From: Chloroflexota bacterium | GTDB lineage: Bacteria; Chloroflexota; Dehalococcoidia; Lucifugimonadales; Lucifugimonadaceae | Reading direction: 5' to 3' | NCBI GenBank assembly: GCA_018650845.1 | Contig: JABIFF010000008.1 | Location: forward strand, 1-64,000 | DNA length: 64,000 nucleotides | In this document: piece after piece, positions 9,470 through 64,000 of the stretch | Numbering within the stretch: position 1 is the first letter of the stretch | How the letters are laid out: each line of letters begins with the position of its first letter | Program-made: the position numbers and the translations under genes | The notes under the pieces: model-generated | What the model saw: the letters and a program-made list of their open reading frames with translations, nothing else | Told to the model about the DNA's origin: nothing | The model's database searches: none

Positions 9470-9506
9470 AACCGAAGATCTCTCCACTCCGCTTTGCTGC
9501 GGTCGG
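9470..9506. repeat. Single arm of interspersed repeat family B
   Basis: This segment contains CTCCACTCCGCTTTGC followed by TGCGGTCGGGA. Close relatives occur at 12555-12594 and 34449-34482, and in diverged form in the element at 24221-24404. Here I see only one arm, in the gap between ispG and the YbjQ-like gene. Confidence 0.6.
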
Positions 9507-9538
9507 GATATCGAATGTGGGTGGTGGCGAGTAAAACG

Positions 9539-12447: not shown

Positions 12448-12594
12448 GATTTGATTTCCCGAGCGGAGTCATCGGAGTCGAGGGATCTCGATGGGTACGA
12501 CTTTCGAAGTAAAGGTGAATGCTACTAGCCGGGCATGTCGAATCTGAGCGCCAAGGTCCCTCCACTCCGCTTTGCTTCGGTCGGGAAGTCAGAT
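12448..12594. repeat. Inverted-repeat element of family B
   Basis: The left arm (12448-12487) and the right arm (12555-12594) are imperfect inverted copies; the shared consensus is CCCTCNACTCCGCT followed by CGGTCGGGAAGTCAGAT. It has no coding capacity. It fills most of the gap between the small basic protein gene and the oxidoreductase gene. A related pair lies at 24221-24404. Confidence 0.6.
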
Positions 12595-12657
12595 GTTGGC
12601 TCAGAGAGTTGTCACTGAGACCAATGATCATCGAAGAGTTCAGAGAGATTAAACCAA

Positions 12658-22633: not shown

Positions 22634-22664
22634 TTACTCGCCGACTGGCTGTCACTCTCGACGT

Positions 22665-22784
22665 TGTCATGCTGAACTTGATTCAGTATTACTTCCAGCT
22701 GAAAATCAATTTGCTCGTCAGTCACCATCTAAGTCGAGTAATTACTCCCTTGTCACGTGATACTGAATCAAGTTCAGCATGACA
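22665..22784. repeat. Inverted-repeat element of family A, copy 1
   Basis: A 120-base non-coding element with near-perfect terminal inverted repeats of about 25 bases starting TGTCATGCTGAACTTGATTC. Each arm also has its own palindromic core, CTGAACTTGATTCAG. Other copies are at 32934-33036, 34270-34397 and 63710-63840. It looks like a miniature, non-autonomous element. Confidence 0.75.
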
Positions 22785-22813
22785 ATGTTGGTCGTGGGTT
22801 TCCGTTTGATCGA

Positions 22814-29795: not shown

Positions 29796-30674
29796 ATGAG
29801 CAAACTTGAATCGACTGGGCTGGGACGCACTGGCGCGGACGCTATCCGCATCGGATTCGGTGGTGCTCCTGCTGGGTTGACCAACTATCTGGATCCGTTT
29901 TCGCCTGTTGATACGGCGCAGCGCGAGGGCGTTATTGCGGCGATTGGTCGGGCGGTTGAAGTTGGCATTAACTACTTCGATACGGCTGCGGCTTACGGAA
30001 CTGGCGAGAGTGAGAAGATTTTCGGCGAAGGACTCTCGGCAGCTGGCATTTCAAGCCAGCGTGACGATCTCTACATCGCCACCAAAGTAAGTCACAACGA
30101 AGCAAACCCTCGTGAGTCGATAGAAAAATCTCTAAAGAATCTACGACTCGATTCACTCGATCTCGTGCAGGTGCATGGCACCACTTACACACCAGAAGCT
30201 CGTGACCAAACTTTGCGTTCAGGCGGGACTTTGGAAGTGCTTGAACAGGCTCGTGATGAGGGGCTGATTCGACATATTGGATTCACGACTGAAGACCAGA
30301 ACCCGCCGGTCTATGAGTTCATTGCTTCTGGCAGATTCGATGTAATGCAGACCTGCTACAACCTCGTTTTCCAGCACACGTATGAGCCGACCCGCCCGTT
30401 TGGTTCGATCTACGAAGCGGATAAAGCTGGGATGGGTGTTGTGACGATGCGATCGCTAACAGCCAGCGTTTTTCAGCGTTGGATGAGCGCAGTTCGCCCC
30501 GACGATGAGTTCGATTATTCGCCAGCGTTGTTGCAGTTCGTACTTTCGAATAAGCTGGTCGATGTTGCGCTGGTTGGCATGCGCACACCTGAGGAAGTCG
30601 ATAAAAATATTGCCGTGCTAAACGATGTTGCGGGTCGGTTTGACTTAAACGATCTGCACGAGAAGTTTGTTTAG
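29796..30674 (+). CDS. Aldo/keto reductase, sugar dehydrogenase-like
   Basis: AKR-fold oxidoreductase of 292 residues. It carries the Asp/Tyr part of the tetrad in NYFDTAAAYGTGESE, Lys in IATKVSHNE, and His in LVQVHGTT. The fold resembles L-fucose and D-arabinose/galactose dehydrogenases, which oxidise free sugars to lactones. It is 69 bases downstream of a mannonate dehydratase-like gene, which suggests an oxidative sugar-acid route in which this enzyme makes the aldonic acid. Specificity is inference. Confidence 0.82.
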   Translation: MSKLESTGLGRTGADAIRIGFGGAPAGLTNYLDPFSPVDTAQREGVIAAIGRAVEVGINYFDTAAAYGTGESEKIFGEGLSAAGISSQRDDLYIATKVSHNEANPRESIEKSLKNLRLDSLDLVQVHGTTYTPEARDQTLRSGGTLEVLEQARDEGLIRHIGFTTEDQNPPVYEFIASGRFDVMQTCYNLVFQHTYEPTRPFGSIYEADKAGMGVVTMRSLTASVFQRWMSAVRPDDEFDYSPALLQFVLSNKLVDVALVGMRTPEEVDKNIAVLNDVAGRFDLNDLHEKFV

Positions 30675-30720
30675 CTAGTTCGTCAACTTGAAGTTGCTGG
30701 CTATGGCGCAAGATCATCAC

Positions 30721-30857
30721 CTACCTGTCGTCCTTCGAGAGCCTCAGGATGACATCTTCTCGATAGTTGTCTTTGGAAAATAGATTCGGTGTTTCATACG
30801 CTTTTGCATGAGCCTCTACTGTTCAGTGCCATCCTGAGGTGCTCGAAGGAGGTAGAC
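30721..30857. repeat. Inverted-repeat pair of family C, upstream of the GIY-YIG gene
   Basis: The left arm (30721-30755) reads CTACCTGTCGTCCTTCGAG and then CCTCAGGATGACA; the right arm (30827-30857) is the inverse (TGCCATCCTGAGG, CTCGAAGGA, GGTAGAC). It is non-coding. A third arm in the left-arm orientation ends the GIY-YIG gene at 31150-31187. Confidence 0.7.
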
Positions 30858-30874
30858 AGGGCTAGACTTTGGCG

Positions 30875-31189
30875 ATGGAACCAACTGTCTACATCCTCGA
30901 ATGCCGCGATGGTGCATATTACGTCGGGTCGACAACGAACCTAGAACGTCGAATAGCCGAACATCATGCTGGTGTTGGTTCCAATTGGGTGTCGAGCCGT
31001 CGTCCTGTTCAGGTTGTGTACAGTCAGATGTTTCCTTCACTGAGAGAAGCTTTTGAGGCAGAACGGCAGCTGAAAGGTTGGCGACGTGAGAAGAAAGAAG
31101 CTTTGATCAGAGGGGAGTGGGATAATCTGCCCGAGTTGGCAGATACTCGCCTACGTGTCGTCCTTCGAGGGCCTCAGGATGACATTTAG
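30875..31189 (+). CDS. GIY-YIG domain nuclease-like protein (UPF0213 type)
   Basis: A 104-residue single-domain protein. The GIY-YIG core is visible as VYILECRDGAYYVGSTTNLERRIAEHHAG, with the family Tyr, Gly and Arg, and a downstream Glu in EAERQLKGWRREKKEALI. Such small proteins are usually of unknown function, sometimes linked to DNA repair. The gene is bracketed by inverted family C repeats, and its last ten or so codons (RVVLRGPQDD) are translated repeat sequence. I start at ATG 30875; TTG two codons earlier is possible. The AGGAGG-like sequence at 30848-30853 comes from the repeat and is rather far from either start. Confidence 0.85.
   Translation: MEPTVYILECRDGAYYVGSTTNLERRIAEHHAGVGSNWVSSRRPVQVVYSQMFPSLREAFEAERQLKGWRREKKEALIRGEWDNLPELADTRLRVVLRGPQDDI
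31150..31187. repeat. Family C repeat arm overlapping the GIY-YIG 3' end
   Basis: CCTACGTGTCGTCCTTCGAG, then GGCCTCAGGATGACAT, nearly identical to the arm at 30721-30755. Together with the inverted arm at 30827-30857 it brackets the GIY-YIG gene in a cassette of about 360 bases. Confidence 0.75.
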
Positions 31190-31239: not shown

Positions 31240-31752
31240 ATGAGTTCTTTCAAAGATTCTGTTAAGTCGGGTATGACCGAGTATCTGGATGAACTTAAGG
31301 AGAAGCTCGACGGTCTTACCGAGGCTGAACTTCGTTGGCAGGCTAGTTTAGATACGAACACGATTGTTTGGCTTGTGTGGCACATGGCGCGGGTTGAAGA
31401 TAACTGGATCAACGGCGTGATTGCTGGCGGCGATACAGTTTGGGATTCCAGTGGATGGGCTGCGAAGACTGGGATTTCAGCCGAAGGCAACGGCTACTCG
31501 AATACGATGGACGAAGTTCGAGCGCTTCCTGAAGTGGCAGTTTCGGACTTGCTTGCGTACTACGATGCAGTGCGTGATGCGGCGTTCAGCGTGATCGATG
31601 ATATGAGCGATGAAGACGTTTCGAACGAACTTGACCGTGGCAACGGGCCGATTACCTGGGGCTGGATTCTTGGTCACGTAATCGTCGAAGAATCTCAGCA
31701 TTTGGGGCAAGTCGCTCTGATTCGTGGAATAATCCGGGGTCTCGACGGTTAA
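31240..31752 (+). CDS. DinB-like four-helix metalloenzyme-fold protein, copy 1
   Basis: Member of the DinB/YfiT superfamily, whose characterised relatives are metal-dependent thiol transferases. It is 170 residues. Likely metal-binding His residues are in VWLVWHMARVEDNW and in LGHVIVEESQHLGQV. I chose ATG 31240 with AAGGA 7 bases upstream; GTG 31222 is less likely. The next gene is a closely related paralog 13 bases away, and a HAD gene follows directly, so the three form one operon. The thiol cofactor and substrate are unknown. Confidence 0.85.
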   Translation: MSSFKDSVKSGMTEYLDELKEKLDGLTEAELRWQASLDTNTIVWLVWHMARVEDNWINGVIAGGDTVWDSSGWAAKTGISAEGNGYSNTMDEVRALPEVAVSDLLAYYDAVRDAAFSVIDDMSDEDVSNELDRGNGPITWGWILGHVIVEESQHLGQVALIRGIIRGLDG

Positions 31753-32890: not shown

Positions 32891-32933
32891 GCTCGGCGAC
32901 CAGATCAAGTCTTGTAGATATCGGGCATCCTAA

Positions 32934-33036
32934 TGTCATTCTGATCTTGAGTCAGAATCGCTGTGTTCGTCGACAATTTGCTGAAAAGTAAATATCACCA
33001 GTTGGTCACTGATTCTGAATCGAGTTCAGAATGACA
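32934..33036. repeat. Inverted-repeat element of family A, copy 2
   Basis: A 103-base element bounded by TGTCATTCTGA and the inverse TCAGAATGACA, with arms related to copy 1. It lies 52 bases upstream of the enolase-superfamily gene at 33089; copy 3 lies just downstream of the same gene. Confidence 0.7.
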
Positions 33037-33088
33037 GTGGGGCCACGGGCCGATGTTGTGCGTAAGAGATAGAGCGTAGGAAAAAAAT

Positions 33089-34249: not shown

Positions 34250-34269
34250 GACGGGTTTGGCACTCACAT

Positions 34270-34397
34270 TGTCATTCTGAACTAGATTCAGAATCATGGG
34301 CTTTGGCGACATTTTCGATACGCGGATTTAACGTCAGTAAGCTGAAGTCGTTATTCGTTGCTGCTCACACTGATACTGAATCAAGTTCAGCATGACA
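34270..34397. repeat. Inverted-repeat element of family A, copy 3
   Basis: A 128-base element bounded by TGTCATTCTGAACTAGATTC on the left and the inverse ending CAGCATGACA on the right. It lies 20 bases after the stop of the enolase-superfamily gene that copy 2 precedes. Confidence 0.7.
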
Positions 34398-34448
34398 ACA
34401 GCTCAACTTTTGGCTGGTATTCACCCATCGCCCCGCCACCCCTCCGAA

Positions 34449-34482
34449 GCTCCCTCCGCTCCGCTTTGCTGCGGTCGAGAGG
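34449..34482. repeat. Single arm of family B repeat
   Basis: GCTCCCTCCGCTCCGCTTTG followed by CTGCGGTCGAGAGG, closely matching the arms at 9470 and 12555. It lies directly after family A copy 3, so two repeat families are stacked in one gap. Confidence 0.6.
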
Positions 34483-34506
34483 TTGAAATAGTGGCGGTGG
34501 TGATAA

Positions 34507-63679: not shown

Positions 63680-63709
63680 TTCGTTCGATAGCGAATAAAT
63701 CAGCGATAT

Positions 63710-64000
<291 letters not shown>

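Follow-up and report, generated by a model that had tools for sequence, protein, structure and literature searches.

Small GIY-YIG nuclease genes paired with inverted palindromic repeats: a probable homing-like cassette in a Chloroflexota genome

A small GIY-YIG nuclease gene in a Chloroflexota bacterium is enclosed by inverted copies of a palindrome dispersed through the genome, and the pairing of such enzymes with such repeats is tight, general and clade-specific. Some genomic sites hold the whole cassette and others lack it; still others carry a solo repeat or a cassette that has lost its interior. The segment is probably a selfish mobile or homing-like cassette; its nuclease would recognise its own palindromes as single-stranded hairpins, and the REPIN-like doublets found elsewhere would be defective derivatives. 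The window analysed here is a stretch of 64,000 nucleotides at the start of contig C4 (JABIFF010000008.1) in a metagenome-type assembly of 2.48 Mb in 24 contigs (GCA_018650845.1).

The nuclease gene occupies 30875-31189 on the plus strand (ATG at 30875, TAG at 31187-31189); a TTG at 30869 is a possible alternative start. It encodes a protein of 106 amino acids with one PF01541 domain (E 7e-17 in a profile search). The residues Y8, Y18, R28, H32 and E65, numbered from the TTG start, are invariant columns in the GIY-YIG alignment (A1). The protein is of the UPF0213 type: its solved relatives 1ZG2 (E 7e-17) and 1YWL (E 4e-13) are both UPF0213 proteins, and an NCBIfam search with it returned no specific family. 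Two intact genes flank it and mark the insertion site, which is empty in congeners: an aldo/keto reductase on the left (29796-30674, plus strand) and a DinB/MST-family protein on the right (31240-31752, plus strand).

The repeat unit is a 29-nt imperfect palindrome with the consensus TGTCGTCCTTCGAGAGCCTCAGGATGACA, drawn from 26 genomic copies; its core is found 26 times with at most 3 mismatches, and a reversed control gives 0. Three units lie at the locus, as the initial annotation had claimed for its family C. An outer R- unit on the left (30726-30754, minus strand, TGTCATCCTGAGGCTCTCGAAGGACGACA on that strand, with unit length set by the 26-copy consensus) is followed 72 nt further on by an imperfect R+ unit upstream of the gene (30827-30858, plus strand); a second R- unit lies downstream (31156-31184, minus strand). 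Both R- units read TGTCATCCTGAGGCnCTCGAAGGACGACA on the minus strand, and R+ is inverted relative to both. The second and third units bracket the gene, and with the first the layout becomes R-/R+/gene/R-. A 45-nt direct duplication (30711-30755 and 31141-31185, plus strand; 40/45 or 89% identical), whose right copy consists of the gene 3' end and R-, brackets the spacer, R+ and the gene, and includes the first and third arms.

Bracketing is the rule for the small GIY-YIG genes of this genome. Its six PF01541 matches are UvrC, which has no bracketing repeats, and five small genes, each of which lies between inverted repeats of the TGTCATNCTGA type, placed in most cases within 25-70 bp of the GIY-YIG domain. 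The brackets fall into the sub-types CTGAG..GTCGAAG, CTGATGAAGATCAG, CTGAATTCATTTTCAG and, for two genes, CTGAACTTGATTCAG. The association had been guessed to be general, and it proves so. In 80 homologous loci gathered by protein similarity alone, 76 of them testable, the two 250-bp flanks were compared, blind to motif, for their strongest inverted repeat, which had to beat every position of the locus; 43 of the 76 pass, where about 1.2 are expected. The bracketed homologues span many phyla, including Alphaproteobacteria, Bacteroidota, Actinobacteria, Spirochaetes and Chloroflexota. The 60 relatives of the window genome have 65 small GIY-YIG loci, of which 41 pass (40 also score at least 12.5), against none of 12 uvrC genes. 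Roughly 40% of homologues lack such brackets; many of these are in Patescibacteria, and in Salinivibrio the gene is fixed.

The final codons of the window gene (..RVVLRGPQDDI) are repeat sequence, as first described: the open reading frame extends into the downstream arm, and the orthologues in congeners G005 and G010 also run in frame into the repeat. This fusion of gene and palindrome had been taken as a meaningful feature and is better regarded as incidental. Of 78 bracketed loci, 51 have the stop codon before the downstream arm, 12 within it and 15 past it; a repeat-encoded 3' end is common and is not a rule. At two Treponema loci (L061, L081) the frame stays open through the downstream repeat into a phosphoglycerate dehydrogenase-like gene, and at L043 and L079 into methyltransferase- and deaminase-like next genes, as if the repeat were an encoded linker. 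Several small GIY-YIG genes in relatives (e.g. G009, G013, G015, G037) are interrupted by in-frame stops, which points to rapid turnover.

Across bacterial phyla, the class of repeat is inherited together with the enzyme clade. A tree was built from 83 bracketed GIY-YIG domains (80 columns); most of its inner forks are weak and its main split is fully supported. The arms were sorted into five classes by core, by eye and by pattern, with the test done afterwards; on the tree these classes require 5 changes for 74 labelled loci, the minimum being 4. When the unlabelled rows are treated as a sixth group, 13 changes are required against a shuffled mean of 32.5, and none of 200 shuffles is as low. 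All labelled UPF0213-type proteins, that of the window included, have CTGAG..GTCGAAG-type arms; all labelled proteins of the other main clade have one of the other classes. Since each enzyme type pairs with its own repeat type, the gene and its repeats have the look of a single selfish unit.

Repeat load follows gene presence. The initial annotation had asked whether the repeats are equally common in genomes that lack the gene; they are not. Across the 19 genomes of the genus, the median density of TGTCATYCTGA sites is 13.8 per Mb with small GIY-YIG genes and 2.7 without. By rank correlation, which ignores phylogeny, density rises with these genes both in the genus (rho 0.65, p 0.003) and in the 60 relatives (rho 0.53, p 1e-5). 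Copies of TGAGCYTGTCGAA have a median of 32 in 24 genomes with bracketed genes and of 2 in 16 genomes with an unbracketed gene, in a comparison that ignores phylogeny and uses a genome set whose selection depended in part on arm type; reversed controls stay close to zero. Two genomes, G008 and G012, keep 36 and 28 sites with no small GIY-YIG gene detected; this could be due to gene loss, incomplete assembly or independence of the repeats.

Three sites in the genus carry footprints of mobility. Each species is represented by one genome, in most cases a draft assembly, and interspecies flanks are too diverged for exact junctions; presence or absence at orthologous sites taken alone fits gain or loss, so empty sites may be losses. 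Empty sites had been proposed as something to seek in close relatives. At the aldo-keto reductase/DinB site, six congeners (G004, G007, G008, G009, G012, G014) have no GIY-YIG gene and a seventh (G013) has a solo family-C repeat. The MFS-transporter/amidohydrolase site behaves alike: G000, G009 and G014 have a cassette there, G004 and G018 have a solo repeat that matches it in class and orientation, and in G006, G007, G008, G012, G013, G015 and G017 the two genes are just 12-67 bp apart. The argG site holds a cassette in G000 and G009; in G013 (L247, 1122-1311) it holds a 189-bp inverted doublet with remnants of the start and end of a GIY-YIG gene. This doublet is an internally deleted cassette, and stands directly between cassettes and REPIN-like doublets as an intermediate form. 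In G010 (L167/L211), a second cassette of the window's clade flanks the DinB pair on its opposite side, so the DinB neighbourhood has been hit more than once.

Related cassettes also occupy unrelated sites, with likeness ending near the arms: L030 is 69-74% alike to L145 and L178 from about -100 (-96) to +73 of the domain and not beyond. Conversely, one neighbourhood (L028, L145, L150, L161, L178) holds cassettes of differing classes. Direct duplications centred on R- bracket spacer, R+ and gene at two sites in three genomes (G000, 40/45 nt identical; G005, 38/39; G014, 50/50) and take in the last gene codons in G000 and G014. The layout suggests that an R- scar was present first and that the cassette integrated there or recombined with it. 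A search for plasmid- or phage-borne copies that would give strain-level filled and empty pairs found none; plasmid matches are at most 53% identical, and those inspected are single resident genes (in Salinivibrio, at the same site in three strains).

Inverted doublets are dispersed as well. Four REPIN-like examples, all of the related TGTCATNCTGAACTTGATTCAG family, lie in the window, at 22661-22788, 32929-33041, 34267-34399 and 63709-63842, and examples of about 130 bp occur in G013. A further dispersed repeat, CTCCGCTTTGCTGCGGTCGGGA, is found at 9475-9521, 12553-12599 and 34447-34493; it resembles the CCCGACCGnAGCGGAGGG arms of class D cassettes in relatives, and no class D cassette was found in the window's own genome. 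A 12-nt repeat array, alanine/lysine-rich, lies at the end of a coding region (880-1250).

The arms fold as hairpins of single-stranded DNA. Four of five arm oligonucleotides give hairpins stabler than shuffles (z -2.4 to -4.4); the family-C minus strand forms a weak hairpin that is not (z -0.9). Stem-preserving double changes recur (CCCTGAATTCATTTTCAGGGTC beside TCCTGAATTCATTTTCAGGATC; CCCTGAA..TTCAGGG). In the mechanism proposed, the nuclease would bind and nick the single-stranded hairpin form of its own repeat, either at forks or in the course of DNA uptake. Repair of the cut with another repeat copy as template would give homing-like copying, by which sites with a repeat in place could gain either the complete cassette or a doublet lacking the gene. 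Recombination between the direct R- arms would remove the cassette and leave a solo repeat; REPIN-like doublets would be non-autonomous or decayed derivatives of cassettes. GIY-YIG enzymes are hydrolytic, and strand rejoining by such nucleases is not known; the enzyme alone therefore cannot transpose DNA, and joining must come from host repair. For this reason the process is called homing-like and the enzyme is not called a transposase. The initial annotation had suggested a self-mobilising unit. Its reading is supported and withstood both of the refutations it had set, equal repeat numbers in genomes lacking the gene and an absence of empty sites; cleavage and self-mobilisation as such are inferred.

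The closest known system is Ssn with the NTS repeats of Neisseria. Ssn proteins are reportedly GIY-YIG nucleases that act on single-stranded DNA and cut it at the NTS repeats (said to be work of the Veyrier group, Nature Communications 2025); the study is said to describe thousands of homologues with their own sites, and Ssn reportedly acts on natural transformation. A gonococcal homologue (L232; 35% identical over 79 amino acids, E 1e-15) is presumably Ssn itself; directly after its stop codon the gonococcal gene has CGTCATTCCCGC..GCGGGAATC, a cassette-like layout. The systems are alike in a single-domain GIY-YIG protein and in GTCATTCC-palindrome repeats in many copies, and the window repeat is likewise multicopy (26 copies) and present around the gene. 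They differ in that the window protein groups with UPF0213-type sequences, whose palindromes are CTGAG..GTCGAAG, and not with the Neisseria-like clade, and in what is seen here: more than one cassette in a genome, empty sites, scars with a solo repeat, and derivatives with deletions. If Ssn is as reported, enzyme/repeat pairing is already known in principle, and the present case contributes the UPF0213-type clade together with its class of repeat, the presence of several cassettes in one genome, and traces of movement. Those traces and the matching of repeat to enzyme across phyla are new here. A literature search on GIY-YIG proteins with palindromic repeats or REPINs returned nothing on point; the Ssn paper lies outside that search.

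RAYTs are tyrosine transposases of the IS200/IS605 type, and REP-like palindromes and doublets are their typical products (PMC2817692, PMC3116915). The initial annotation drew an analogy with REP-associated transposases, which holds for the anatomy: a gene with a palindromic repeat on either side in inverted orientation, an abundance of such repeats in the genome, both single and as doublets, a repeat that follows the enzyme clade, and compensatory stem changes (PMC2817692, PMC3116915). It fails for the enzyme, which is a GIY-YIG nuclease (PF01541) and not a PF01797 tyrosine transposase; the window repeats also lack the GT(A/G)G head and have a conserved outer end, TGTCAT. GIY-YIG homing endonucleases share the catalytic domain and the proposed copying by repair into cut targets (PMC1564403). 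In contrast to these, the window gene has no intron, intein or separate DNA-binding domain (NUMOD etc.), and its target would be a dispersed palindrome that also flanks the gene and not a single allelic site. The text of the 2006 survey of the GIY-YIG superfamily does not mention palindromes (PMC1564403). The UPF0213/YazA/YhbQ proteins (PDB 1ZG2, 1YWL) are the nearest solved sequences to the window protein, but many members are fixed genes without repeats.

Abundant intergenic repeats, which number 100-150 in the richest genomes, could place copies on both sides of many small genes, and the association would then be coincidence or ascertainment. This is hardly credible: at about one site per 20 kb, close two-sided bracketing of five genes out of five is not expected, and the matching of classes would go unexplained. 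Chance proximity was rejected on local sliding controls and uvrC, both negative. The palindromes and doublets are REP-like and typical of RAYT activity (PMC2817692, PMC3116915), so an unrelated transposase, RAYT or other, might spread them with the GIY-YIG gene as a passenger between two copies. This is very improbable, since five different cassettes in one genome and the co-inheritance of clade and class across phyla are left unexplained. A search of 19 congeners, of which one has its genome in a single contig, gave no PF01797 (Y1/RAYT) protein, with control genomes positive; a RAYT as hidden driver was accordingly rejected.

The cassette might instead not move by itself. The nuclease would then be a resident enzyme of genome dynamics or transformation, regulating uptake or recombination at repeats that spread otherwise, and selection or auto-regulation would keep the gene beside them. 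In favour of this, some homologues are fixed in conserved neighbourhoods (Salinivibrio, Sphingomonas), arms near the gene start and stop could act on mRNA, and Ssn is reported to act on natural transformation. Movement as a unit is indicated by presence and absence at three sites, by the occurrence of related cassettes in unrelated places, and by derivatives that are solo repeats or carry deletions, and the resident enzyme is an unlikely explanation that nevertheless deserves some weight. For the selfish cassette in its widest form, we see about even chances that small GIY-YIG nucleases drive the widespread CTGAGC(C/T)TGTCGAAG, GTCATTCTGAA.. and ATTCCCG.. palindromic repeats across phyla, by REPIN-like, RAYT-independent copying that is triggered by a nuclease and requires no transposase.

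Short palindromic repeats of this kind occur in many bacterial genomes without, to our knowledge, a known mover. The pairing of repeat class with GIY-YIG clade names a likely enzyme, predicts which enzyme cuts which repeat and makes the spread of the repeats testable. If the selfish cassette is real, GIY-YIG selfishness would extend from introns to dispersed repeats; in the widest form of this reading, the cassettes would represent a second, RAYT-independent class of REPIN-like mobile DNA.
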